In this document: one piece after another, positions 9,207 through 40,071 of the stretch
How positions within the stretch are numbered: the first letter of the stretch is position 1
Layout of the letters: the number at the start of each line of letters is the position of its first letter
Assembly (NCBI RefSeq): GCF_001280425.1
Contig: NZ_LIUF01000005.1
Coordinates: 1-64,000, forward strand
Direction of reading: 5' to 3'
Source: Haloarcula rubripromontorii
GTDB lineage: Archaea; Halobacteriota; Halobacteria; Halobacteriales; Haloarculaceae
Length of the DNA stretch: 64,000 nucleotides
Made by a program: the position numbers and the translations under genes
The notes under the pieces: model-generated
Told to the model about the DNA's origin: nothing
Seen by the model: the letters and a program-made list of their open reading frames with translations, nothing else
The model's database searches: none

Positions 9207-10787
9207 CTACCGTAGCACCGGTTCGTCGGCGAGGATTTTCCGAACGATGAAATCGAAGTTCTCGTTCCCTGGCTTGACCTCGTCGTGTTCCACTTTGAAA
9301 TACTCGTTGTCGCCCGCGGACCGCGTCCTGAAGAACGGAAAGCCGATGTGCTTCCGTTCGAAGTAGACGTGTACGTACCGCTTCGCGCGTGCGACCATTT
9401 CCTCGTCCATCTCTACATCGCGAACGTTGCGTAACAATCCGAAGTACTCGTCCTGCGTTTCTGGATCGAATGTGAAACCGAGGTCGCGGTAATGGGTGTC
9501 CCCGGCCACGATAGTTGGGACACCTTCGTACGCCATCTCAAGGCCAACTGTAGAGTTGTATACGATCCCTGCGTCCAGATCACGAATGAGTGCGTACGTA
9601 TCGATGTCGGTATCCGGTGATAGGATTTCAAGATTGTCGGGGAGTGGGTCGTGTCCGTCACGGATTCGTCCTTCAACTGACTCGTCCGTACCGAACTTCG
9701 CCTCGGCGGGATGGGTCTTCAAGACGAACTGCACGTCGTCGACCCTCGATACGTATTCGACTGTGTCATCTATCCAATCGAGTACGTCCGGGAAAACGAG
9801 TTCCTCGACTTCGAGAGAAGCGTCCCAGATCAGGTTCGTGAATATGCCGACCGTACAGTCAGCAGACGAGTCGAACGAGTTGTTGGTTCGAGCGGAGTAG
9901 TTGATCCTGACGTCAGAACCTTCGGTTCTGGCAGCCATGATTTCTTTGACTCGGCGCTCCTCGCTATCAGAGAGAGGTTCCGCTAACTCCGTCTGGAGCG
10001 TATCATGGTCAGTAAAGAATGGTAATGAGGAGCGGTTTCCTGCGTCACCGAACAGGATAGTCCCCTCGCGGCGACCGAGGGCATGACTGTACGACGTTAC
10101 GCCGTGTTTCTGCGCGACTGCGAGATGGATCCCGCCGTGAATGTAGCGGTCGTCGTGTGCGAGAACAGCGTCGAACGGATATTGCTCGAACAGCGCCTCA
10201 CACATGTCGACGAGGATGACCGCACTTCGGAGGAACCTGAGGTACGTTTCACGATGGTAGTTGTCCTCGAAGTCGATCGAGTGCCGCAAGAGGAAGCGGC
10301 GAGTGGATGACATCGCGTAATCAGCGACGGAAATTCCGCGATAAGTTTGGAGCGTTGTATCTACCTCCGGTGGACTGTATGTTTCACCGAGCAGTGACTC
10401 GATGGGAATGCCCTCAAGTCCGAACGCTGAAAGGAGCGACCGCCCGGCGTAGTTACACACGTCACAGACTGCCTTCCCATCCTTCTCGCATGTCTTCCGT
10501 TGGCAAAGATCGAGATCGGCGTGGCAAAGGGGAATAATTGGAGTGTAGCCCCGCGTCCGAAAGGCGTGTGCGAGAATACAATACCGGAAGGAATTCAGTC
10601 CGTCTTGCCCGCGCGTGAGAGGAATGAGGACATACCCGTCATCTGTAGGCTCCGAATACGATTTTAAACTTTCGTCCGTCAGATCCGAAAAGTCGTACTT
10701 CTGGGTAAAGTGGTTCTCTAGCCGGATTGCGGCCGATCCGAGACCGGCCTTAGAGAGAGTCTGATAGATTTTCCACTTCGAGAGCAT
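9207..10787 (-). CDS. capsule polysaccharide synthesis-like glycosyltransferase (KpsS/LipB-like)
   Basis: A 526-residue protein of GT-B appearance. The N-terminal half has a Cys-rich insert, CQRKTCEKDGKAVCDVCNY, that could bind metal. The C-terminal half contains FVLKTHPAE, then DAGIVYNSTVGLEMAYEG and VPTIVAGDTHYRDLGF, a pattern of capsule-synthesis/Kdo-transferase proteins in which a Thr/Ser-rich loop and Glu bind the nucleotide sugar. No membrane segment is evident. It is convergent with the AP-superfamily gene (10 bases apart) and lies downstream of the ABC exporter on the same strand, 70 bases away. The donor sugar is unknown; CMP-nonulosonate made by the downstream cluster is one candidate. 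Confidence 0.6.
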   Translation of the reverse strand: MLSKWKIYQTLSKAGLGSAAIRLENHFTQKYDFSDLTDESLKSYSEPTDDGYVLIPLTRGQDGLNSFRYCILAHAFRTRGYTPIIPLCHADLDLCQRKTCEKDGKAVCDVCNYAGRSLLSAFGLEGIPIESLLGETYSPPEVDTTLQTYRGISVADYAMSSTRRFLLRHSIDFEDNYHRETYLRFLRSAVILVDMCEALFEQYPFDAVLAHDDRYIHGGIHLAVAQKHGVTSYSHALGRREGTILFGDAGNRSSLPFFTDHDTLQTELAEPLSDSEERRVKEIMAARTEGSDVRINYSARTNNSFDSSADCTVGIFTNLIWDASLEVEELVFPDVLDWIDDTVEYVSRVDDVQFVLKTHPAEAKFGTDESVEGRIRDGHDPLPDNLEILSPDTDIDTYALIRDLDAGIVYNSTVGLEMAYEGVPTIVAGDTHYRDLGFTFDPETQDEYFGLLRNVRDVEMDEEMVARAKRYVHVYFERKHIGFPFFRTRSAGDNEYFKVEHDEVKPGNENFDFIVRKILADEPVLR

Positions 10788-10857: not shown

Positions 10858-12648
10858 TCAGGGTGATCGGATCTGCGTTCGATACATCGAGGCGTACATT
10901 CCATCCCGCTCAAGCAACTCGTCGTGGGGACCTACTTCCCGGATCCCGCCATCGTCTACAACGTAAATCCGGTCCGCATCCGTGATCGTAGAGAGGCGGT
11001 GCGCGATGACGACGAGCATGACGTCATCGCGACGCTCGATGCGTTCGTGTATTTCCTCTTCGAGGTGAGAGTCCAAGTCACTCGTCGCCTCGTCGAGAAC
11101 CAGAATTTCCGCGTCCTTGAGCACCGCTCTCGCGATGGAAATCCGCTGTCGCTGGCCACCCGAGAGTCGGACCCCGTCGTCACCAAGCACGGTGTCGAAT
11201 CCGTTCGGTAGTTCGTCGAGGAACTCAGTCACCTGCGCCGCTCGACAGGCCGCTTCGACCTCCTCCTTAGTCGCATCCCTATCAGCGACGGTCACATTTT
11301 TCCAGAGCGTATCGTTGAAAATGTACGGTTGCTGGCGGACGACCGAGAGTCGCTGGCGCCATTCATCGAGTTCGTAGGTCTCGATTGGTACGTCGTTGGT
11401 CGTGATAGTCCCCGTGTCGGGATCGTAAAAACGGGCGAGAAGCGAGACGATGGTCGACTTCCCGGCCCCGGAACCACCGGCGAACGCGACGAATTCGCCT
11501 TGCTCGATCACGAAGGAAATATCGTCCAGTACGGTTTCATCTTGATATGCGAAGGTGACATCGCGAAAGGAAACGCGTTCGAGTTGGTCTGGGCACGGGT
11601 CCCCGTCGGAACCCGGTTCCTTCCGGTCCGCTAGTTCGTCGATGAACGTCTGGGTCCGGATGAGGTGTGGCAGGTGTCCTTCGATCTGGTAGAACTGGTT
11701 GTTGATTGTACTAACCCGAGGTGCGAGTCGGAAAACCGCGAACAAGAGCAGTCCCAGTCCGCCGAAAGAAAGATTAGAATATTCGAGGAACGCGTATAGC
11801 GAAGTGAAGATTGTGACGGCTATGGTGAACTGATAGAAGTGATCAATTGCAGACCGGTTCCGATACAACTGGATCGTCGACGCGGTATACTTCTGAACCG
11901 ATTCAAGGAAGTCGTCCATTAGTTCGTCTGAGAGCGCAAAGAGTTTCACGTCGCGGATGCCCTGCGTCCCGGCCTGAACGACCGTCTGTATCTCGTGATT
12001 CGCGTCGGCGACTCGATCACCGACGGAGTAGCCGGACTCGACCATTTTCCGCGCGAAATAGAAGAGGCCACCGAGGAAAACGGCTGCAACGATCAGGAAC
12101 TTCGGTGCCAAATAGACCACTATCGCCACGTAGATCAAACTCATGAACGCTTGTTTGAGGATTTCGACGAGCCACTGGATCATTTGACCGGCATACTCGG
12201 CTTGCGTCACTATCGTATTGAGAATGTCGTCGGACCCCTTTTCATCGAAGTACGCAATCTCGGTATCCAGTGCCCGGTCGAAGGCCGTCGTCTGCAGATG
12301 ACGGACGTAATCTGTTCGGAGATAGGCCTTCAACCAGTCGACGACGAAACTGGACCCGTACCGAACACCCATCACGGTGATGACACCGACGATGATGTAC
12401 TCGAGTGTGAATGGAATTCCTAGAACGTCGTAGAGCGTAACGAACGCCTCAATGAATTGGCTCTGGTCGGACGAAGACGCTTCCCCCCGAGTGATATCGA
12501 TGATGGGAAGAATGAAACTGAGACCAATACCCTCCAGCACGGCGGCAACCAGACTCATCCCAAGAATGGCGAGTGTCGTCAGTGGACGATGACGAGCGAC
12601 GTGTTCGAGCGCAGCTAATTTCTCCCGCTGCGAGGCTTCGTTGTTCAT
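10858..12648 (-). CDS. ABC exporter, fused membrane and ATPase domains (MsbA/PglK-like)
   Basis: This 596-residue half-transporter has about six membrane segments in residues 20-330. A nucleotide-binding domain follows, with Walker A GGSGAGKST near residue 389, signature LSGGQRQRISIARA near 499, and Walker B ILVLDEATSDLDS just after. Such exporters homodimerise. Relatives flip lipid-linked oligosaccharides, which fits this glycan cluster. The ATG at 12646-12648 (MNNEASQ) is preferred over an upstream start that would add 15 proline-rich residues. The gene diverges from neuB, with a 332-base gap that carries the neuB promoter. Confidence 0.82.
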   Translation of the reverse strand: MNNEASQREKLAALEHVARHRPLTTLAILGMSLVAAVLEGIGLSFILPIIDITRGEASSSDQSQFIEAFVTLYDVLGIPFTLEYIIVGVITVMGVRYGSSFVVDWLKAYLRTDYVRHLQTTAFDRALDTEIAYFDEKGSDDILNTIVTQAEYAGQMIQWLVEILKQAFMSLIYVAIVVYLAPKFLIVAAVFLGGLFYFARKMVESGYSVGDRVADANHEIQTVVQAGTQGIRDVKLFALSDELMDDFLESVQKYTASTIQLYRNRSAIDHFYQFTIAVTIFTSLYAFLEYSNLSFGGLGLLLFAVFRLAPRVSTINNQFYQIEGHLPHLIRTQTFIDELADRKEPGSDGDPCPDQLERVSFRDVTFAYQDETVLDDISFVIEQGEFVAFAGGSGAGKSTIVSLLARFYDPDTGTITTNDVPIETYELDEWRQRLSVVRQQPYIFNDTLWKNVTVADRDATKEEVEAACRAAQVTEFLDELPNGFDTVLGDDGVRLSGGQRQRISIARAVLKDAEILVLDEATSDLDSHLEEEIHERIERRDDVMLVVIAHRLSTITDADRIYVVDDGGIREVGPHDELLERDGMYASMYRTQIRSP

Positions 12649-12944
12649 TTGTTTGGGAAAGCAGAGTTCGATCGGCGGTGGACCCTCCACCAATAAAAAC
12701 GATCCGATCCGCTAGCCGTCGCTCCGGGGATACGGCACCTTGGCGTGGGTATAGTCCGTAGGCACATCGGTAGATACGATCATAGCCGGGTGTGGTACTT
12801 GATGAGTATCAGTGTACGTGATTCGATCAGAATAGAATGTGTTTGGCCGTGATGTTCATTCGACTATCGCTGGCGTCGACCCGTTCGATCACAGATCTAC
12901 CGACGTTCACACACTACAGAGGGAGCCAGTGTTCGCCATACGTC

Positions 12945-12980: not shown

Positions 12981-14009
12981 ATGACCGCAGATACTGGTTT
13001 GGAACCCCACTGCAAAGTTATCGCGGAGGCAGGTGTGAACCACAACGGCGATATCGAGATAGCCAAAGGCCTTGTGGACGCAGCCGCTGCCGCCGGTGCT
13101 GACGCGGTCAAATTTCAGACCTTCCAGCCGAAAGAAGTCGCGACGGCTCAGACGGAGCAGGCCGACTATCAGAAGGAACGGGATGCCAGCACAAATCAGT
13201 ACGAAATGCTGGAAAATGTAAAATTGCGAGAGGAAGATCACGACGTCCTGATGGAATATTGCCAGGAAGCTGGAATCGAATTCATGTCTACGCCGTACGA
13301 CCCGGGGAGCGTCGAAATTCTTGAATCCTCCGGCGTTGATCGGTACAAAGTCGCCTCAGCCGATATCGTGAACAAACCCCTCTTGAGTGCGATTGCAGAA
13401 ACAGGAAAGCCCGTCATCCTCTCCACGGGGATGGCAAACCTTGGTGAAATCGAACGCGCAGTCGAGTTCCTCCGGTCTCGAAATTGCGAGGACGTCACTC
13501 TCTTGCACTGCGTTTCATCGTATCCAGCCAAGGCCACCCAGCTCAATATGCGATTTATCGAGACTCTCGCAACGGCGTTCCCCGGGCAGGTCGGGTTTTC
13601 GGATCATACGAGGGGGGTCGTGGCTCCAGTCTTGGCGATGGGATACGGAGCCTCTGTGATTGAAAAGCACTTCACTCTAAACCGGGGGATGGAGGGGCCA
13701 GACCACTACGCGTCGTTAGAACCCGAGGAACTCTCGCAGATGGTGGACAACGTGCGATTCGCCGAGAAGGCAATCGGAAGTACACGCCGGTTGATCTCTA
13801 AAGTGGAACGGAACAACAAACACTCCATGCGCCGGAGCTTACACGCCAGTCACGATATCGAATCTGGTGCGGCTATCTCTCCCGACGACTTATTGATCGT
13901 CCGCCCAGACGAAGGGATAAGTCCGTGGAATTACGACGATGTCGTCGGTAAGTCTACTACACAAGAGATCCCCAAACACTCACCGATTACGTGGGACCAC
14001 ATCGCATGA
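12981..14009 (+). CDS. neuB: N-acetylneuraminate/legionaminate synthase family (NeuB-like)
   Basis: This 342-residue enzyme condenses a six-carbon amino sugar with phosphoenolpyruvate to make a nine-carbon nonulosonic acid. IAEAGVNHNGD at residues 14-24, VKFQTFQPK, EFMSTPYDPGSVE, YKVASADIVN, ILSTGMA, HCVSSYPA, GFSDHTRG and IEKHFTLNR are all classic NeuB-family blocks. The C-terminal SAF (antifreeze-like) domain begins around RRSLHASHDI. NeuB, LegI and PseI cannot be separated by eye, and the sialic versus legionaminic product is open. A longer frame from 12837 lacks conserved sequence, so ATG 12981 is chosen. Its stop overlaps the next start as ATGA, making it the first gene of a tight operon. 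Confidence 0.9.
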   Translation: MTADTGLEPHCKVIAEAGVNHNGDIEIAKGLVDAAAAAGADAVKFQTFQPKEVATAQTEQADYQKERDASTNQYEMLENVKLREEDHDVLMEYCQEAGIEFMSTPYDPGSVEILESSGVDRYKVASADIVNKPLLSAIAETGKPVILSTGMANLGEIERAVEFLRSRNCEDVTLLHCVSSYPAKATQLNMRFIETLATAFPGQVGFSDHTRGVVAPVLAMGYGASVIEKHFTLNRGMEGPDHYASLEPEELSQMVDNVRFAEKAIGSTRRLISKVERNNKHSMRRSLHASHDIESGAAISPDDLLIVRPDEGISPWNYDDVVGKSTTQEIPKHSPITWDHIA

Positions 14010-14839
14010 TATGTGCATCAACGCAGTGTCTTCCAGATACCGGGATGGAGGAGACACTAAAGGCGTACTCCCGGGCCGACATCGAAAACGTCGAACTCGG
14101 CTACTGCAGCGAAAAGGATGTAGATGTCTCGGCGCTAGTCAAGGAGTATTCGTTCAATTTTGTTGCCCACAATTACTTTCTCCCCGTTCAGGATGAGTTC
14201 ATACTTAACCTCGCCTCGCCGGACGAATCCCTGCGACGACAAAGCGTCGACTATGTCAAGGACGCGATCAACTTCTGTGAGAAGCACGATATACCGCGGT
14301 ACACGTTCCACGGCGGGTTCAGAGTCGACCCGGATCTGTCCCTGACATTCCCTAAGCGGTCGCCACCCGACTACGAAGCGTGCTTCGAACGGTTTCTTTC
14401 GTCACTGCAGTCTGTAATTGACCATGCGACGTCAACCGACGTGTCGATTTCGATAGAGAACAACGTCGTCACCACGGAGAACGTGGTTGGGGGAGATCCC
14501 CTCCTCATGTTTTGTCGACCTGACGAATTCAGTCGTTTATTCGAGGAGGTAAACCCATCTGACTGTGGCGTTTTACTCGATACTGGCCATCTGAACGTGT
14601 CCTCACATACCTTTGACTACGATAAGTCAAAATTCGTACAAGAAGTAGCGGACTGTCTCGATTGTCTCCATCTGCATACAAATAACGGACGTGCTGACCA
14701 ACACGAAGCGGTCAATCCAGCCGACGACATACCTGTGTCGTCGATGTCAGGGCTGACTCGCGTAGTCGAATCACACCATGGGAACGCAAGAGACTTAAAA
14801 CAACTGTTGGTACGCTTAGGCGCTAAGAGTGAACGGTGA
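14006..14839 (+). CDS. sugar phosphate isomerase/epimerase-like TIM-barrel protein
   Basis: A 277-residue protein of the xylose isomerase-like/AP-endonuclease-2 superfamily. Likely metal ligands sit in YTFHGGF, SISIENNV (Glu), LLDTGHLN (Asp/His) and CLHLHTNNG. Such proteins isomerise or epimerise sugars using a divalent metal. The start ATG at 14006 overlaps the neuB stop by ATGA. It is embedded between neuB and the formyltransferase, so it probably acts on a precursor of the same nonulosonic acid, although canonical pathways do not use this fold. The precise reaction is unknown. Confidence 0.7.
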   Translation: MICASTQCLPDTGMEETLKAYSRADIENVELGYCSEKDVDVSALVKEYSFNFVAHNYFLPVQDEFILNLASPDESLRRQSVDYVKDAINFCEKHDIPRYTFHGGFRVDPDLSLTFPKRSPPDYEACFERFLSSLQSVIDHATSTDVSISIENNVVTTENVVGGDPLLMFCRPDEFSRLFEEVNPSDCGVLLDTGHLNVSSHTFDYDKSKFVQEVADCLDCLHLHTNNGRADQHEAVNPADDIPVSSMSGLTRVVESHHGNARDLKQLLVRLGAKSER

Positions 14840-15618
14840 TGATTGACACAAAAATTCTATTGGCGACGTTCTATCGATCTGGGATTCTAGCGATTAGGCA
14901 GTTGTTGAATAGTGGCTTCGAAAAAGAGCAACTTCGCGTCCTGACCTACGATATCGAACGGAACGAAGAACTACTGGAGTTTCTCGAAAAGAAGGATATA
15001 TCGTATAAGACCGACGATATTTCCGACCCCAATACAGAGTCGTGGATCGAGGAGTTCAATCCAGACCTCATTTTTTCCCTCTACTATCGAGACAAGATCC
15101 CGAGCCATATCCTCGATATTCCACAGTACGGTGGTGTGAATCTCCATCCGTCGTTGCTCCCGCAGTACGCCGGTGTGCTGTCGGTGCCGTGGGCGATGGT
15201 CGAAGGTGAATCGCGTACCGGCTACACGTACCACTACATGACAGACAAGATCGACACTGGTCCGATACTCAAGCAGGAAGAGGTCTCTATCGGTCCTACT
15301 GATACCGCTTATTCGCTCTACCACCGGCTCATCCACGCTGGAATGAGCAACTTCCTGCCGGTACTCGAATTGATCGTGGAAGAGGAGTACAGCGGTCGAC
15401 CACAGACGGGAGCCGGCACGTATCACGGGCGAGGCGACCTTCCGAATGACGGAGTTATCAACCATCAGTGGTCCGACGGTGAAATCGACCGATTCATCCG
15501 GGCGATGTACTACCCACCGTTTCGACCCGCAGTAGCCGAGTTCTGCGGTCAGGAATTCGAGATAACGTCGATGGCTGAGTACTGTCGTCTCCGACGTCAA
15601 CACGGTATCAAGCAATGA
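14839..15618 (+). CDS. formyltransferase family protein, probable sugar N-formyltransferase
   Basis: This 259-residue protein has the hydrolase/formyltransferase core that uses 10-formyl-tetrahydrofolate. The catalytic triad is visible: Asn101 and His103 in GVNLHPSLLPQYAG and Asp139 in MTDKIDTGPIL. It is shorter than methionyl-tRNA formyltransferase, and archaea do not formylate initiator tRNA. Within a NeuB-NeuA operon next to a sugar aminotransferase, it most likely formylates an amino sugar. The start is ATG 14839, sharing a base with the previous TGA; GTG at 14836 would add one residue. Its stop overlaps the neuA start. Confidence 0.75.
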   Translation: MIDTKILLATFYRSGILAIRQLLNSGFEKEQLRVLTYDIERNEELLEFLEKKDISYKTDDISDPNTESWIEEFNPDLIFSLYYRDKIPSHILDIPQYGGVNLHPSLLPQYAGVLSVPWAMVEGESRTGYTYHYMTDKIDTGPILKQEEVSIGPTDTAYSLYHRLIHAGMSNFLPVLELIVEEEYSGRPQTGAGTYHGRGDLPNDGVINHQWSDGEIDRFIRAMYYPPFRPAVAEFCGQEFEITSMAEYCRLRRQHGIKQ

Positions 15619-16319
15619 CGTGTGACGTATTCGCCGTAATTCCGGCGCGCGGAGGGTCAAAGCGGATACCGAAAAAGAATATCAGGGAAGTAGCTGGAAA
15701 GCCCCTCATCGCCCACACGGTGGAGCAGGCGAACGAAGCGACAACAATAGATAGAGTGATTGTCTCGACTGACGACGAGGAAATAGCCTCAGTAGCACGC
15801 GAGTACGGCGGGGAAGTCCCTTTTATAAGACCGGCCAGACTAGCAACGGATGAGACACCGGGGCCACCGGTCATCCAACACGCGCTCGACTGGATTGAAA
15901 AACAACACGAACTGCCGACCGTGATTGTAAAGTTGCAAGTTACTTCTCCACTCCGTCGAGTAGATGACATCGACCAGGCAGTACGGAAACTGCAGAACGA
16001 CGAGACTGCGAAATCGGTCATCTCCGTGACTGAGTTTGAGCAACCACCATTCTGGGCAGTAGCACCCGACGATGACGGGTACCTACATACGTACTTCGAT
16101 AGGGACGTCCTTTGGACTGACGACATTCCGCGTAGCCAAGACCTTCCAGCTTTGCATTGCCCGAACGGAGCCATCTTTGCCGCACGGAGGAAGGCTTTTA
16201 TTAAACACGAATCATTCTATACCGACGCTACGGTTCCATTCGAAATGCCAAGAGACCGGTCAATTGATATTGACGAACCGATAGACCTAGAGATAGTCAG
16301 GACTCTTGCAGAGAAATGA
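15615..16319 (+). CDS. neuA: CMP-nonulosonate cytidylyltransferase (NeuA-like)
   Basis: The 234-residue protein activates a nonulosonic acid with CTP to give the CMP-sugar donor. AVIPARGGSKRIPKKN at residues 7-22 is the nucleotide-binding loop. PLIAHTVEQA, VSTDDEEIASVA, LQVTSPLR and a C-terminal RDRSIDIDEPIDL segment are all conserved in acylneuraminate cytidylyltransferases. ATG 15615 overlaps the preceding stop as ATGA, so all four genes from 12981 form one translationally coupled unit. Substrate choice among sialic, legionaminic and pseudaminic acids cannot be set by eye. Confidence 0.9.
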   Translation: MTCDVFAVIPARGGSKRIPKKNIREVAGKPLIAHTVEQANEATTIDRVIVSTDDEEIASVAREYGGEVPFIRPARLATDETPGPPVIQHALDWIEKQHELPTVIVKLQVTSPLRRVDDIDQAVRKLQNDETAKSVISVTEFEQPPFWAVAPDDDGYLHTYFDRDVLWTDDIPRSQDLPALHCPNGAIFAARRKAFIKHESFYTDATVPFEMPRDRSIDIDEPIDLEIVRTLAEK

Positions 16320-16335
16320 AATGTAACGCGTATAG

Positions 16336-16347
16336 TTTAAGAATATA
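16336..16347 (+). promoter_or_regulatory. TATA-like box before the aminotransferase gene
   Basis: TTTAAGAATATA lies 34-45 bases before ATG 16381 in a short AT-rich gap. It could drive separate expression of the aminotransferase with a short leader. Confidence 0.4.
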
Positions 16348-16380
16348 CGATCACCTTCACTGGTACTCTACTACTTATAA

Positions 16381-17463
16381 ATGATTCCGCTTGCGGAACC
16401 GACATTTGGAGACGCCGAACGTTCTCGGGTGGTTGACGCACTTGAACGTGGATGGATTTCCCCAAAGGGCGAGTACGTCACGGAGTTCGAAGATGTGTTC
16501 GGGGCTTGGATCGGAACCGAACACGCTTTCGCTACCTCGACCGGGACCGCTGCACTCCACCTTTCACTTTTGGCTGCCGGGATCGGCGAGGGAGATGAGG
16601 TAATCGTCCCGGACCTGACGTGGATCGCCTGTGCAAACGTCGTGTCCTACGTCGGTGCAACGCCGGTGTTCGCCGACGTTGATCCGGATACATACACACT
16701 CGACCCCGCTAGCGTCCGTGAGCGTCTCACCGAAGACACCAAGGCGGTGATGCCGGTCCATCTCTACGGACAGCCCTGCGAGATGACGCCGATTCAACGG
16801 CTCGCCGACAAGCATGATCTCTTGGTCCTCGAGGACGCTGCCGAGGCACACGGAGCGACGTATCGTGGTCGACGTGTGGGGAGCCTCGGCGACGTCGGCT
16901 GTTTCAGCTTTTACGGGAACAAGATCCTCACCACCGGTCAGGGTGGGATGATAACGACGGACGACGACGAACTTGCAGAGCGAATACGGCTGCTCCGGCG
17001 GGACGGTATGTCGAGAGACAGAAAGTACTACCACTCAGTGATCGGGTACAATTATCGACTGACGAATATACAGGCCGCAATCGGCGTTGGGCAGGTTGAG
17101 CGTGCCGACGCGATCCTTGAAAACAAACGCCGCGTCGCTGAGACATATCGCCGCGAGTTGACGACGCAGGACGTTCGCTTCCAAGCGACACCCGGTTGGG
17201 GGGAGTCAGCCCACTGGATGGTCGCCCCGGTGTTTCGAACGACCGGACAGTTCGAGCGGGTTCGGAACGCACTCGCTGATGCCGACGTAGAGACGCGGCC
17301 ATTTTTCTACCCACTCCACGAGCAACCGCCCTACGCCGGGAGTGGAAGCGATTGTCCTGTGACGGAACGACTCCATGAGCGTGGTCTGAATCTGCCGTCC
17401 GCTCCGAATCTTAATCACCAGATTATAATGGAGATATGTGACGTTATCCGCAATGCCCTCTAA
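16381..17463 (+). CDS. DegT/DnrJ/EryC1 family sugar aminotransferase
   Basis: This 360-residue PLP enzyme transfers an amino group to a keto-sugar nucleotide. It shows ATSTGTAALHLSLLAAGIG for cofactor phosphate binding, LVLEDAAEAHGA with the Asp that contacts the PLP ring, and FSFYGNKILTTGQGG with the Schiff-base Lys181. Size and motifs match LegC, PerA and PseC-type enzymes. It sits 61 bases after neuA, so the likely step is 4-amination of a 4-keto-6-deoxy sugar nucleotide produced by the SDR next door. That amine is what the formyltransferase could modify. Confidence 0.88.
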   Translation: MIPLAEPTFGDAERSRVVDALERGWISPKGEYVTEFEDVFGAWIGTEHAFATSTGTAALHLSLLAAGIGEGDEVIVPDLTWIACANVVSYVGATPVFADVDPDTYTLDPASVRERLTEDTKAVMPVHLYGQPCEMTPIQRLADKHDLLVLEDAAEAHGATYRGRRVGSLGDVGCFSFYGNKILTTGQGGMITTDDDELAERIRLLRRDGMSRDRKYYHSVIGYNYRLTNIQAAIGVGQVERADAILENKRRVAETYRRELTTQDVRFQATPGWGESAHWMVAPVFRTTGQFERVRNALADADVETRPFFYPLHEQPPYAGSGSDCPVTERLHERGLNLPSAPNLNHQIIMEICDVIRNAL

Positions 17464-17483
17464 TTTCGGCACCGAGGCGAGAA

Positions 17484-17492
17484 GGTTATAGT
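17484..17492 (+). promoter_or_regulatory. TATA-like box before the SDR gene
   Basis: GGTTATAGT lies 22-30 bases before ATG 17514, the expected place for a leaderless promoter. Confidence 0.45.
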
Positions 17493-17513
17493 CCCCGAAA
17501 AAAACTAACCCGT

Positions 17514-18545
17514 ATGGTTACCGAACTCCAAAATGAGCGGGTGCTGGTTACTGGGGGCGCCGGCTTCATTGGTTCCGCTCTCGTCAGGCGACTGCTCGAG
17601 AACGATAACCACGTCACTGTCTTGGACAACTTCGTAACGGGTTCCCTCGATAACTTACAGGATATCGTCAATCGAATCGAAGGGGAACGGGCCGACCTGG
17701 CAGACCACATCGACCTCGTTAGTGGTGATATCCTGCGGTCGGACCTGGCAGATCTGCTGGAGTCGAAGGAAATCGACTACGTGTTCCACCTCGCTGCAGA
17801 ACCATACATCCCGAGTTGTTACGATCGACCCACGGATTTCTTCTCGGTCAACGCAAACGGGACACTCAAACTGCTCCTCGCGTGCCGGGACGCTGACGTG
17901 GAGCGCATCCTTATATACTCGTCGTCGGAAGTGTACGGGACCGCCCAAGAGGTCCCGATGAGCGAGTCCCATCGTACGTATCCGCAGTCGACGTACGCGG
18001 TCAGTAAACTCGCAGCCGATCGCCTCTGTTTCACGCTCTTCCACGAACAGGATGTCCCGGTCGTCATCCTCCGTCAGTTTAACTGCTACGGGCCGCGAGA
18101 GACCCACCCCTACATCGTCCCCGAATTGATCGCACAGCTATCGACGGATAATCAGCTGTCGCTGGGGAATATTGAGGCGAGTCGCGACCTCACGTACGTC
18201 GAAGACGCGGTCCGCGGCGCCTCGAAGCTTATTAATTGTCCCGACGCGGAAGGCGAAGTTGTGAATCTCGGCTACGGTAAGGACTACACCGTTGAGGAGC
18301 TTGCGCACATAATCGCCGAAGAGATGGGGTACGCCGAAGTGAGCATCGAGGTCGAACAGTCCCGGTTCCGACCGCTGGACGTACAGCAGCTACACTGTGA
18401 TTATTCAAAGGCATCGGACCTGATCGACTACGAACCTCAGGTCGACATTCGTGAAGGGATACGGCGAACTATCGATTGGTACCAGCAAAACGGCGAATGG
18501 GTGTGGGAGCGGTCCCTGAAAGACCAGCTCTGGACTGAAGAATAA
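17514..18545 (+). CDS. NAD-dependent epimerase/dehydratase (extended SDR), sugar-nucleotide modifying
   Basis: A 343-residue extended short-chain dehydrogenase. LVTGGAGFIGSAL near residues 12-24 binds NAD, YVFHLAAEPYIPSCY follows, SSSEVYGTAQEVPM carries the active-site Ser, and STYAVSKLAADR holds Tyr161 and Lys165. Relatives include UDP-glucose 4-epimerases, GDP-mannose 4,6-dehydratases and LegB-type 4,6-dehydratases. Given the adjacent aminotransferase and nonulosonate genes, a 4,6-dehydratase making the keto-sugar is the favoured reading, but an epimerase cannot be excluded. It ends the plus-strand glycan genes. Confidence 0.82.
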   Translation: MVTELQNERVLVTGGAGFIGSALVRRLLENDNHVTVLDNFVTGSLDNLQDIVNRIEGERADLADHIDLVSGDILRSDLADLLESKEIDYVFHLAAEPYIPSCYDRPTDFFSVNANGTLKLLLACRDADVERILIYSSSEVYGTAQEVPMSESHRTYPQSTYAVSKLAADRLCFTLFHEQDVPVVILRQFNCYGPRETHPYIVPELIAQLSTDNQLSLGNIEASRDLTYVEDAVRGASKLINCPDAEGEVVNLGYGKDYTVEELAHIIAEEMGYAEVSIEVEQSRFRPLDVQQLHCDYSKASDLIDYEPQVDIREGIRRTIDWYQQNGEWVWERSLKDQLWTEE

Positions 18546-20396: not shown

Positions 20397-22100
20397 ATGA
20401 GACACCGGATCGTGAGCGGGATGTGCGCTTTATTCCTCCTCTTGGCAGTCGCGTCTGTCTCCGTGGGTGTCGCTGCTGCAGCGGACGCCGGGCAGTATGC
20501 TGACTACACAGCGACGGGCAACGAAACAGCGCCAGCGATACAGTCGGTTGGTCCCACACAGGCTGTTGCAGACGGGCCGAACGGAACGGCGTTCGTCTGG
20601 GAACGGATAGACGGCGCGCGGCCCGGCGGGTATCAGATCGCAGTGGCTCTTAGCTCGCCACAGGAGAACCTCTCGGTCTGTGCGCGCGCAAACGGGTCAC
20701 TGAACTGTACGTCGGTCGGCCCGAACGGAACTGCGACGCTCACGACTCCCGGGATAACGGGACTCGATGAGCTCTCAGTCTCTCTCTACAACACGCGCAC
20801 CGACACCGCGATAGATCGGCAGCCGGTGTCTCTGCAGCCGATTCAGCGTGCCGGTGATATTGACGACGACGGGCTCAACAACAGCCACGAAGTGGTCCAG
20901 GGGACGAACCTCACTGACGCCGACACTGACGGCGACGGGCTGCTGGACGGGACAGAGGTCCACCAGCACGGGACGGCCCCCACGGACGCAGACACTGATG
21001 AAGACGGTGTCACCGACAGGACTGAGATCCAACAGGGCACCGATCCGAGACAGGACGATACCGATGGCGACGGCCTATCAGACGAACGTGAGCTGTCGCT
21101 CGGGACGAATCCGACCGTCGCGGATACTGACGGCGATGGGCTGTCCGACCAGCGAGAGGCGTCAGGCAAGACCGACCCAACCGACGCGGACACGGACAAC
21201 GACGGCGTCGTCGACGGCCGAGAGCTGACGGTCGGCACGAACCCGGTACAGGCCGACACCGACGCTGATGGGGTCGCTGATGGCAGGGAGCTAGCTCTGG
21301 GCATGGACCCAACAGTCGCAGACACTGACGGTGATGGGGTGGCAGATGGGACAGAACTCGAATCGGGGACCGAACCCACCGAGAGTGATACAGATAGTGA
21401 CGGCCTCGACGACGGAAGAGAACTGGCAGCCGGCACGTCCCCGACCACCGTCGATACGGATGGCGATGGCCTCAGCGACGGGCGCGAGGTTTCCGAACTT
21501 GGAACGGACCCACTCGCGTCCGATTCGGACGGTGACTTCCTGACTGACCCACAGGAAGTCACCTGGGGGACGAACCCGAACAGCGTTCTGACGCCAGCCT
21601 GGGTGACGAGTTCGCTACTGGGGTTCCTGATAGGGATTGGGCTGACAGTCGCAGCAATCAGGCGCGGCTGGGTTATACGGCTCTCAACGGCGGCCAGACT
21701 GTTCATCTATCGCTACCTCGAACTGGATCGGGAGATACTCGAAATTAACCGTGAAATCGACGCCACAGACAGGGTAGTCGAAGCTGACAGCGCAGATATC
21801 GACGTGGACACTGCAGCAGAGGCCTTCGAGCAAGCTGACCGGGAACTCACCCCCGACGCGCACCTCGTGAAGCTGATGCTGCAAGCCGAGAACGGTCGTC
21901 TGCACCAGACCGACATCGTTGAGGCGACGGACTGGTCGAAAGCGAAGGTTAGCCGCCTCCTTTCGCGGATGGTGGACGAAGACGAGGTCGTAAAGATACG
22001 TCTCGGCAGGGAGAACCTCATCTGTCTGGAGCGGGCAAAGCCCCCAGCGGCGAACTCGCCCCACGCAGGCGATATCAAGCCGCCGACACCCGGCGGATAA
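20397..22100 (+). CDS. membrane-anchored MarR-like HTH protein with extracellular thrombospondin type-3 calcium repeats
   Basis: This 567-residue protein has a signal peptide at residues 1-29, a beta-rich extracellular region to about 150, then 11 D-x-D-x-D-G calcium-binding repeats (about 153-397) of the form DTDGDGLSDGREL. One membrane segment follows at about 402-422 (SSLLGFLIGIGLTVAAI). The cytoplasmic tail ends in a winged-helix domain: DAHLVKLMLQAENGRLHQTD, ATDWSKAKVSRLLSRM and EDEVVKIRLGRENLICLE. The layout suggests a one-component sensor in which an external signal, calcium or a surface ligand, is passed to a DNA-binding domain held at the membrane. Proteolytic release is another possibility. 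There is no kinase or PAS domain. Confidence 0.85.
   Translation: MRHRIVSGMCALFLLLAVASVSVGVAAAADAGQYADYTATGNETAPAIQSVGPTQAVADGPNGTAFVWERIDGARPGGYQIAVALSSPQENLSVCARANGSLNCTSVGPNGTATLTTPGITGLDELSVSLYNTRTDTAIDRQPVSLQPIQRAGDIDDDGLNNSHEVVQGTNLTDADTDGDGLLDGTEVHQHGTAPTDADTDEDGVTDRTEIQQGTDPRQDDTDGDGLSDERELSLGTNPTVADTDGDGLSDQREASGKTDPTDADTDNDGVVDGRELTVGTNPVQADTDADGVADGRELALGMDPTVADTDGDGVADGTELESGTEPTESDTDSDGLDDGRELAAGTSPTTVDTDGDGLSDGREVSELGTDPLASDSDGDFLTDPQEVTWGTNPNSVLTPAWVTSSLLGFLIGIGLTVAAIRRGWVIRLSTAARLFIYRYLELDREILEINREIDATDRVVEADSADIDVDTAAEAFEQADRELTPDAHLVKLMLQAENGRLHQTDIVEATDWSKAKVSRLLSRMVDEDEVVKIRLGRENLICLERAKPPAANSPHAGDIKPPTPGG
20857..21588 (+). repeat. in-gene repeat coding for thrombospondin type-3 calcium motifs
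   Basis: Eleven units of roughly 60-75 bases each encode an Asp-rich loop (DTDGDG and variants) followed by an E-L-x-x-G-T-x-P segment. The reading frame is continuous and the units differ, so this is a protein repeat and not a CRISPR or satellite. Confidence 0.85.
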
Positions 22101-37805: not shown

Positions 37806-38109
37806 ATAGATGACTCTAACGCGGTTAGGGCAAGAAACTATGGGACGATTCTGTCGGCCCGTCGGTCTCAGCCCCGCTCTGTCGGAACCGCTGTCTCGGC
37901 GACAGCAGGGGGTAACTTCGGCGGATTGTGGTCCACGTCGAGACGAGTTCGCTTGCACAGACTCGGCGGATCGGCGCTAGTAATCGCTGCAGACTCGCTT
38001 CGCTCGTCGGTGGCGACGGTAGAAATGGGTTCGATTTTGAACGCTCTGGGCCTCCTCACTCGCTCCGCTCGCAGCCGCATTGTGGAGCTACGTGACCGGG
38101 CCATAGACC
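37806..38109. other. intergenic sequence before the integrase remnant
   Basis: No gene or RNA could be supported. A T-loop-like GGGTTCGATTTT at about 38026-38037 has no surrounding cloverleaf. GC-rich CTCGCTCCGCTCGC-type tracts occur, as in other haloarchaeal gaps. Confidence 0.4.
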
Positions 38110-38970
38110 AACGATTCAGGGGTACGCTATGGCTGAAAAATTACACTCCAGAGCGTTTGATTGAATTGTATCAAGACCACCGGGAAGGAGAAGTTACAGA
38201 GAAAACCTTACGCAACAACTGGTCCATCTTCGAGACTTCAGGGGTGGTGTGAGCGTAACGGCATTGAGGACCTGCGGAACCTAGATAGGCTTGAGCTACA
38301 GTCATTCTGGGTCCATCTCAAAGAGGGTCGCTCATTGACTACCATCTAAAACCACGCTTCAACTATCCGAGCATTCCTACGGTGGCTTCATAAGCTCAAT
38401 GTGGTTGAACAGGACCTGTCTAAAGCCCTCGAAGTTCCTGGCCTCTCTGACGGAGAGCGCGCGACGTGATGATTGAACCAGAAACAGGAACGCGCCTCAA
38501 GAACGCAGGGGCCGGAGAGCGGAAGCCGTACATTCGAGCTGACTATTGCGATGTATCAGACGACCACATTGAGGCGCGACGGGTTGATGTTCAAGACGAA
38601 TACGGACGGAACCCTCTCCTTTCCAATCAAAATGGTAGATACCACGTGAATTCGTTTCAGGCGATGGCCTATGCTATGACCCGTCCCTGTTACTACACGA
38701 ATGATTGTCCTCATGACCGTGACATTGAGGATTGAGGCAGCCCAATACGATTCGGCATCGAGGTGTCCATCAAGCATGTCTCCACACCCTGTGAGGCGAG
38801 GTTCTATCACTGACCATCTACGCGAGAAAGATTGGGGGTATGACGATGTATCACAGCGGTTCGACGTATCAGTGAAAGTTCTTAAGAAGCATTACGACAG
38901 AACCACCGAAGACGACCGCCGCGACAGGAGAGCATCAAGATACTTTGACAATGAGTCTGGAAATCTATAG
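38110..38970 (+). pseudogene. tyrosine recombinase/integrase pseudogene
   Basis: The N-terminal core-binding part (WLKNYTPERLIELYQDHREG) is followed by a frameshift into CERNGIEDLRNLDRLELQSF, then a stop, then STIRAFLRWLHKLNVVEQDL. The middle of the catalytic domain, including the first catalytic Arg, is missing. The C-terminal part reads PETGTRLKNAGAGERK, then TRPCYYTNDCPHDRDIED, and after another frameshift SPHPVRRGSIT with the His-x-x-Arg box and KKHYDRTTEDD with the catalytic Tyr. At least two frameshifts, one stop and one deletion make it non-functional. It is the remnant of an integrated virus or plasmid. Confidence 0.85.
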
Positions 38971-39158
38971 TTCTCAAAGTCCCTTATTATAATTACTACT
39001 AAGCATATAATAAAATTCGCACCCACTTCCACGGAGACGGTCAGTACAGTAACTACAACTTGCAGGCCACGAAAGCTCTGGTGTTAATCAGAATTAGTTG
39101 TAGACGAGACCTACAGCCGAGTTGGGAACAGACCCTCAAAGAGACATTCTACTGATTA

Positions 39159-39623
39159 TCAGTCCTCTGTAACGTCGGTTTCCCCGTGCATCAAGCGAGA
39201 CACTCCGCGCAGCAACAGGATAATCCCAGCGAGCCCAGCCCCGATGCCGAGTGTATCCACGAAGCCACATGTCTTGCATCTTGAGGCGGTGATTATACTG
39301 TATACCGTCCCGTTTTTTTCCACAAGGGCAGTGGCCGATGTGTCTCCAGTTGGATACTCGAAATCTGGTGGTGACTGATTCACCCGGATAAATTCATCAG
39401 CACGAAGTCCTTGGTCAAACAACTCTTGACCCTCCTCTGAAAGGTTACTGTACCTGAGCACCTCCTCATCGGGAGAGATATCCGATTCATCCACCTCCGT
39501 GACGAGAACTTGGGTTCCCGTATCGGGGGCAACGAAAAGGAGTAGACCAGCTATAATAAACGATACCACTCCAAATATAACGAGAGTTCGGCCACTGAAT
39601 TGAAATCCTGCTGGTGTACTCAT
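39159..39623 (-). CDS. small membrane protein with two helices and a Cys pair
   Basis: A 154-residue protein. One membrane helix lies at about 12-31, an outer acidic loop includes EVLRYSNLSEEGQELFDQGL, and a C-K-T-C pair (Cys116/Cys119) sits just before a second helix at about 125-140. The layout recurs in haloarchaeal proteins of unknown function, often in accessory regions. Local composition is AT-richer than the core. It lies between an integrase remnant and a tRNA gene and may be cargo of the same element. Confidence 0.65.
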   Translation of the reverse strand: MSTPAGFQFSGRTLVIFGVVSFIIAGLLLFVAPDTGTQVLVTEVDESDISPDEEVLRYSNLSEEGQELFDQGLRADEFIRVNQSPPDFEYPTGDTSATALVEKNGTVYSIITASRCKTCGFVDTLGIGAGLAGIILLLRGVSRLMHGETDVTED

Positions 39624-39996
39624 TTTATAGAGTTACTGAAATAAATAGTGTTTAGTATCCGAATTCATCAGCCAAGTTAGCGATTCCGCCTTCCGTGCAA
39701 GTAGGTATATTCCTTGTGGATCCGCTGGCGTTCTTACTGATTCAATTGCTTCTTTCGCACGTTTCGTTTTAGCAGGTAATTCAACTCATGGCTGGTGAAA
39801 GCAACTCTCTCAGTAGTAATTATGAGCATTGAGGTGCTTTTGCACTTCGGCTTATCAATGCTGTCCGTTAGTAGTTCGAAAGTCATGGGCGGCATGATGA
39901 AGAGAGCTTACGTACCTGATTAAATACGCTTATTTCTGATACAATTAATAAATGCAGGCCCGCTGTTGGTGAATTAGGCCCCAACAAGTAATTTAG
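39624..39996. other. AT-rich gap downstream of tRNA-Val
   Basis: No gene is supported. A short hairpin GTTGG/CCAAC at 39965-39985 lies just past the tRNA 3' end and could terminate it. No second copy of the tRNA 3' sequence was found that would mark an attachment site. Confidence 0.4.
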
Positions 39997-40071
39997 TGGG
40001 TTCGGGCGGATTTGAACCGCCGGCCTCCTCCATGTCAAGGAGGTGTCATAACCGACCTAGACCACGAACCC
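39997..40071 (-). tRNA. tRNA-Val (anticodon GAC)
   Basis: The minus strand folds as a complete cloverleaf of 75 bases. The acceptor stem is GGGTTCG/CGAACCC with discriminator A. The anticodon stem is CCTCC/GGAGG around the loop TTGACAT, giving anticodon GAC. The T arm is GGCGG-TTCAAAT-CCGCC. No intron is present and CCA is not encoded. It is opposite in strand to the trp operon that starts 179 bases away. Confidence 0.95.

Follow-up and report, generated by a model that had tools for sequence, protein, structure and literature searches.

A predicted LegG-free route to a formylated legionaminic-type acid in Haloarcula rubripromontorii, with an endonuclease IV-like TIM barrel as candidate nucleotide-releasing enzyme

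Introduction

Nonulosonic acids cap surface glycans. In the GDP-legionaminic acid pathway of Campylobacter jejuni, which comprises LegB, LegC, LegH, LegG, LegI and LegF, the LegG enzyme both hydrolyses its substrate and inverts C2. Here, we analyze a block of six genes at positions 12981-18545 of a 64,000-nucleotide stretch of DNA from the archaeon Haloarcula rubripromontorii (contig NZ_LIUF01000005.1, positions 1 to 64,000; hereafter, the window). This block resembles the C. jejuni pathway in its LegB- and LegC-like first steps and in its NeuB and NeuA homologues, but carries a formyltransferase for LegH and lacks LegG, which is apparently replaced by a triose-phosphate isomerase (TIM) barrel protein similar to endonuclease IV (Endo IV).

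Other described systems share parts of this arrangement. The sps pathway of Bacillus subtilis produces legionaminic acid through SpsG, not LegG, and so provides a precedent for a LegG-free route, but it employs UDP sugars, its dehydratase can be replaced by PglF, and it includes neither such a TIM barrel nor a formyltransferase (PMC7439481). A formylated nonulosonate is already known from a haloarchaeon: Halorubrum sp. PV6 has formylated legionaminic acid along with LegB, LegC, LegF, LegG, a formyltransferase, NeuD and LegI, and the formylated sugar has been implicated in virus attachment (PMC6137143). In the literature searched, we found no description of a LegG-free cluster combining a formyltransferase like Brucella WbkC with an Endo-IV-like TIM barrel.

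Results and Discussion

The six-gene block and its relation to known clusters

All six genes lie on the plus strand and match their families well over the Pfam cut-offs. A NeuB/LegI-type nonulosonate synthase with NeuB and SAF domains (12981-14009; PF03102, 6e-96, and PF08666) is followed by a PF01261 TIM barrel (14006-14839; 4e-24), a formyltransferase (14836-15618; PF00551), a NeuA/LegF/PseF-like CMP-nonulosonate synthetase (15615-16319; PF02348, 1.7e-28, 100 bits), a DegT aminotransferase (16381-17463; PF01041, 5e-122), and an extended short-chain dehydrogenase/reductase (SDR; 17514-18545). At each of the first three junctions, the stop codon overlaps the next start by 4 bases (ATGA, GTGA and ATGA), with an alternative GTG start of the TIM barrel at 13991 extending the overlap with NeuB to 19 bases; the last two intergenic gaps measure 61 and 50 bases. 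An earlier interpretation made without database searches (the sequence-only reading) had proposed a nonulosonic acid cluster in which the genes from NeuB through NeuA overlap and an aminotransferase and a sugar-nucleotide SDR follow, and our analysis agrees with it on each of these points.

The NeuB protein exceeds the cut-off of the NeuB_NnaB equivalog model (TIGR03569; 406.5 bits against 399.65), scores lower, and under the cut-off, with the PseI model, and has as its nearest solved structure B. subtilis SpsE, a member of the legionaminic acid pathway of that bacterium (PMC7439481). For NeuA, the nearest NCBIfam model is PseF (180.5 bits, below the cut-off of 205.7). The aminotransferase carries the pyridoxal phosphate lysine motif SFYGNK and is best matched by the LegC family (TIGR04181; 354.6 bits, cut-off 420), its nearest solved relative being a perosamine enzyme. 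The SDR is best matched by LegB (TIGR04180; 242.5 bits, cut-off 475) and contains SSSEVYG together with YAVSK; the SSSEVYG motif is typical of 4,6-dehydratases, and the SSSSVYG type, of epimerases. The pseudaminic acid pathway does not fit the locus: besides the low PseI score, the SDR is not PseB-like, and the genome contains no PseG.

The sequence-only reading had compared the locus with a Halorubrum strain, and the comparison is sound as to function, with one region encoding NeuB, NeuA, an aminotransferase, a dehydratase and a formyltransferase in both cases, but not as to the gene set. We used locus L053, with the same gene order and matching gene lengths, as a stand-in for the PV6 cluster. 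The PV6 genes include LegG and NeuD and lie near aglB, whereas the window contains neither, and about 190 kb separate the block from aglB; the PV6 type of formyltransferase is ArnA-like and only 23% identical to that of the window. Furthermore, PV6-like and other LegG clusters encode a PseB-type dehydratase (L058) and a PseC-type aminotransferase (L054, L059, L048), in contrast to the LegB- and LegC-like enzymes found here.

Three NeuB clades, each paired with its own enzyme

A search of 391 genomes of the class yielded 77 NeuB genes in 75 genomes. We searched neighbourhoods of up to 20 kb around all 77 using the proteins of the window plus additional seeds, and built a NeuB tree. The NeuB genes linked to the TIM barrel (n=4) form one clade (support 100/99), in which all four loci encode the TIM barrel and none encodes LegG or PseG. 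In a second clade, LegG lies within 10 kb of NeuB at 18 of 18 loci, with neither PseG nor the TIM barrel present; an example from this clade matches NeuC_NnaA at 420 bits. The third, PseI-type clade has PseG at 26 of 32 loci, three of the remaining six being on short or cut contigs; as in the other clades, these counts represent non-independent events. A different enzyme thus accompanies each of these three NeuB clades, the TIM barrel occupying the place expected of the nucleotide-removing one.

The four TIM clusters share NeuB, the TIM barrel, NeuA, a LegC-class aminotransferase and an SDR, although the SDR of L013 is further from LegB. In a second species of the same genus (L014), the order of the block is kept and the TIM barrel is 94% identical; in two other haloarchaeal genera (L013 and L119), the same enzyme set recurs in rearranged form. 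The three genera are well diverged, with long branches in the NeuB tree. Given the conservation of the block in L014 and the recurrence of the set in two further genera, the association is not due to chance.

The known nucleotide-removing enzymes are missing from the host genome as a whole (3.97 Mb, 99.99% complete), where we found neither LegG/NeuC nor PseG; epimerases of the AGE type are absent as well. The only Epimerase_2 protein adjoins a UDP-N-acetylmannosamine (UDP-ManNAc)-type dehydrogenase and scores 351 bits, like WecB-type members elsewhere, in contrast to 247-287 bits for the LegG genes that adjoin NeuB in other genomes. On these grounds, a LegG located elsewhere in the genome is excluded, extending to the whole genome the sequence-only reading, which had seen neither this hydrolase nor an acetyltransferase nearby. 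The acetyltransferase LegH is not in the six-gene block, where the formyltransferase stands instead; no genome-wide search for LegH was made. Across the four TIM-cluster genomes, a WecB-type epimerase occurs in three, AGE-type epimerases are absent in three, and one genome (G379, 94% complete) has no detectable Epimerase_2.

Two other features of haloarchaeal NeuB loci were observed in the survey. Four NeuB genes (L073, L076, L080, L098) form one clade with frames of about 630 amino acids, about 280 over the usual length. Beside a separate NeuB clade are weakly PseG-like proteins of about 545 amino acids (L108, L111, L112, L114, L115, L116), possibly a fused hydrolase.

The TIM barrel is a putative metal-dependent hydrolase

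In a sequence search with the TIM barrel, MJ1311 and Endo IV rank first, and a profile of the four cluster sequences places ketose 3-epimerases close behind. The protein is not recognized as Endo IV proper (nfo model, 32.9 bits, cut-off 129.65) or as a ketose 3-epimerase (DTE, 24.1 bits, cut-off 300), and its scores are far under the cut-offs of both the Nfo and the CbiR models. In an alignment with E. coli Nfo, residues that are invariant across the four cluster proteins match eight of its nine metal ligands. The column of the remaining ligand, H69, holds no match, but an invariant H60 nearby is, by inference, its displaced equivalent. In the AlphaFold model (predicted local distance difference test score, pLDDT, 84), H60, H107, E156, D197, H229 and E260 are located at, or one residue past, the ends of consecutive barrel strands.

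On the basis of these features, the TIM barrel probably hydrolyses a sugar nucleotide in a metal-dependent manner. It shares the fold and eight of the nine metal ligands with the Endo IV/CbiR/MJ1311 branch of the AP_endonuc_2 superfamily but keeps company with sugar-nucleotide genes rather than those of DNA repair or cobamides. This superfamily has produced further hydrolases, as exemplified by the phosphodiesterase CbiR (PMC7733943), which provides a precedent for such an activity. The sequence-only reading had labeled the protein an isomerase; given the Endo-IV-type metal ligands and its presence at the pathway position of LegG and PseG, that label found no support: the protein is not recognizable as an isomerase and probably not an ordinary one. 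A bolder proposal, to which we give somewhat less than an even chance, is that this TIM barrel represents a third class of nucleotide-releasing nonulosonate enzyme, with no relation to LegG/NeuC or PseG, in which a multinuclear metal site may couple the release to inversion of C2, and which is present in archaea and at least one bacterium. No paper assigning a TIM barrel of this kind to nonulosonate synthesis was found in a search that left most subscription papers outside its reach.

Relatives outside the NeuB clade were detected as well. A plasmid of Azospirillum (L153:14261-17354) encodes, in a row, NeuA, a TIM barrel with 29% identity and a fusion of an N-terminal CBS domain with LegC; NeuB is separated from this row by about 6 kb, and 30 kb of sequence revealed no NeuC. 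This row sits among amidotransferase, HisF and HisH genes typical of acetamidino modification. In two genomes from a different family of the same phylum (L150:9515-13557 and L151:9585-13643), a close relative of the TIM barrel lies between a dehydratase-type SDR and a glycosyltransferase, in a row that also includes a UDP-sugar dehydrogenase and a nucleotidyltransferase, a context that fits action on sugar nucleotides. A pattern scan of genome contigs with the four TIM-barrel sequences recovered mainly distant superfamily members; viral contigs yielded no match.

The formyltransferase is of the sugar-nucleotide type

The closest solved relative of the formyltransferase is the GDP-perosamine formyltransferase WbkC, aligned nearly full-length (4.8e-52 across 250 residues), with 180 bits versus 95 for ArnA (6e-26 or weaker); Fmt and PurN match far more weakly. 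The catalytic motif, N102-x-H104 plus D140, is the same as in Brucella WbkC, which, unlike the window enzyme, works in O-polysaccharide synthesis with no nonulosonate genes. The sequence-only reading had singled out a grouping with purine or tRNA enzymes as the result that would count against it; these scores rule out such a grouping, and by sequence the enzyme is of the sugar-nucleotide type.

The formyltransferase is found in two of the four TIM clusters (the window and L014), and in the other two (L013 and L119), a NeuD/PglD-like acetyltransferase takes its place. This exchange suggests that formylation replaces the acetylation by LegH. On the simplest reading, both acyltransferases would modify the amine at C4 of the nucleoside diphosphate (NDP) sugar, giving a 7-N-formyl or a 7-N-acetyl product.

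Formyltransferase genes also occur near PseI in 13 of the 31 haloarchaeal PseI-type clusters scanned, often directly beside PseI and PseG (for example, L067:10564-12258, with similar places in L068, L072, L074, L078, L081, L085 and L088). This suggests that N-formylation of pseudaminic acids may be common among haloarchaea.

Proposed pathway and alternative explanations

We consider it fairly probable that the block encodes a LegG-free route to a CMP-activated legionaminic-type acid, most likely the 5-N-acetyl-7-N-formyl form, in which an Endo-IV-like metallo-enzyme frees the sugar from its nucleotide. The reactions, the substrate, the position of the formyl group and the hydrolysis of the sugar nucleotide are all predicted from the gene set. 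The LegB-like SDR would dehydrate NDP-N-acetylglucosamine, GDP being the favoured nucleotide, after which the LegC-like aminotransferase would add an amine at C4, and the WbkC-like enzyme would formylate this amine in place of the acetylation by LegH. The TIM barrel would then take the part of LegG and strip off the nucleotide, NeuB would join the freed hexose to phosphoenolpyruvate, and NeuA would activate the product with CTP. The inversion of C2 may be performed by the TIM barrel itself, be rendered unnecessary by a pre-formed manno precursor, or not occur at all, in which case the product would be a new stereoisomer.

Several observations weigh against this scheme. No enzyme epimerising C2 was identified, and the LegB and LegC models both score below their curated cut-offs, so that the starting sugar is uncertain. 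The TIM-type clusters found in archaea number only four, two of which come from nearly identical species, and whole-family searches returned no others. The Azospirillum TIM barrel has N instead of H at one ligand position. The L150 and L151 relatives belong to a sugar-nucleotide locus without NeuB, and therefore the TIM-barrel family is not confined to nonulosonates. Finally, the best Foldseek matches are Endo IV and MJ1311, but the comparison fails to separate Endo IV from the ketose 3-epimerases that come close behind, so that the fold alone is not decisive, and the NCBIfam matches are weak to both.

The last of these points bears on an explanation in which the TIM barrel, being similar to D-tagatose 3-epimerase, only inverts C2 of the freed sugar, while a hydrolase encoded elsewhere releases the nucleotide. 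The shared superfamily and the epimerase matches are compatible with this possibility, which would also close the gap in C2 inversion, but H107, D236 and H238, ligands of the Endo IV type, are invariant in the cluster proteins, and the alignment with D-tagatose 3-epimerase shows no histidine at the position of H107. With LegG and PseG absent, one more hydrolase would have to be postulated, and we regard this explanation as unlikely. The inversion would be dispensable if the precursor were already of the manno configuration (GDP-mannose, perosamine-like, or UDP-ManNAc made by WecB) and the TIM barrel only hydrolysed it, yielding either a 7-formamido acid resembling Kdn or a legionaminic acid derived from ManNAc. 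Perosamine enzymes are indeed the nearest solved relatives of both the aminotransferase and the formyltransferase, and the WecB-type epimerase of three genomes could supply the sugar. However, none of the four genomes encodes a GDP-mannose 4,6-dehydratase that exceeds the cut-off, and the GDP-mannose dehydratase route is rejected accordingly; the SDR of the cluster is LegB-like and reaches only 84 bits with that model against a cut-off of 415. G379 lacks any Epimerase_2, and the manno precursor as a whole appears rather unlikely.

The position of the formyl group is subject to a different alternative, namely, that the formyltransferase acts only once the nonulosonate is formed, perhaps at N5, or that its substrate is another sugar, as has been proposed, without proof, for PV6, whose glycan carries 5-N-formyl-legionaminic acid (PMC6137143). 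The low identity to the PV6-like enzyme, together with the much closer relationship to a sugar-nucleotide 4-N-formyltransferase and the use of a NeuD/PglD-like acyltransferase at the same place in the sister clusters, makes late formylation improbable. It is also conceivable that the TIM barrel lies beside these genes by coincidence and that the WecB-type epimerase, of which three genomes have a homologue, provides the LegG activity. The strict pairing with one NeuB clade over three genera, the 4-base overlap with NeuB in the window, the bacterial NeuA-TIM pair and the lack of Epimerase_2 in G379 all argue to the contrary, and we consider this explanation highly implausible.

Genomic surroundings

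Within the first 20 kb of the window (1-20 kb), the G+C content is 47-59%, compared to 57-67% for most of the remainder; reduced G+C is usual in surface-glycan islands. Upstream of the block are genes for a methyltransferase, a Wzy_C-type protein, a phosphodiesterase, a polysaccharide deacetylase, a glycosyltransferase, a sulfatase, a weakly KpsS-like protein and an ATP-binding cassette (ABC) exporter. The divergent exporter gene (10858-12693, minus strand; PF00005, PF00664) has homologues in many haloarchaeal NeuB loci and is only a possible part of the system. The weakly KpsS-like protein of 526 amino acids (9207-10787, minus strand; Capsule_synth, PF05159, E-value 0.0084; KpsS model, 0.0012) has strong relatives in a few other NeuB loci (L090, L103, L071, L078) and is, speculatively, a candidate CMP-sugar transferase. 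The oligosaccharyltransferase AglB is encoded on the same contig, and given its distance from the block, the sugar may be destined either for N-glycans or for a surface polysaccharide.

Farther along the window, positions 20397-22100 encode a protein of 567 amino acids that contains numerous repeats of the DTDGDGLSD type, a probable membrane segment and a C-terminal part resembling a regulator. Another steep drop in G+C (48.5%, 38001-40000), the second in the window and possibly an integrated element, ends at a tRNA-Val gene (39996-40071).

Implications

With both known nucleotide-removing enzymes missing and the remaining ones retained, the pathway points to one gene as the replacement. If the TIM barrel indeed performs this step, PF01261 proteins annotated as 'sugar phosphate isomerase/epimerase' beside NeuA or NeuB would need re-annotation, and predictors of nonulosonate synthesis that demand LegG/NeuC would overlook real producers.

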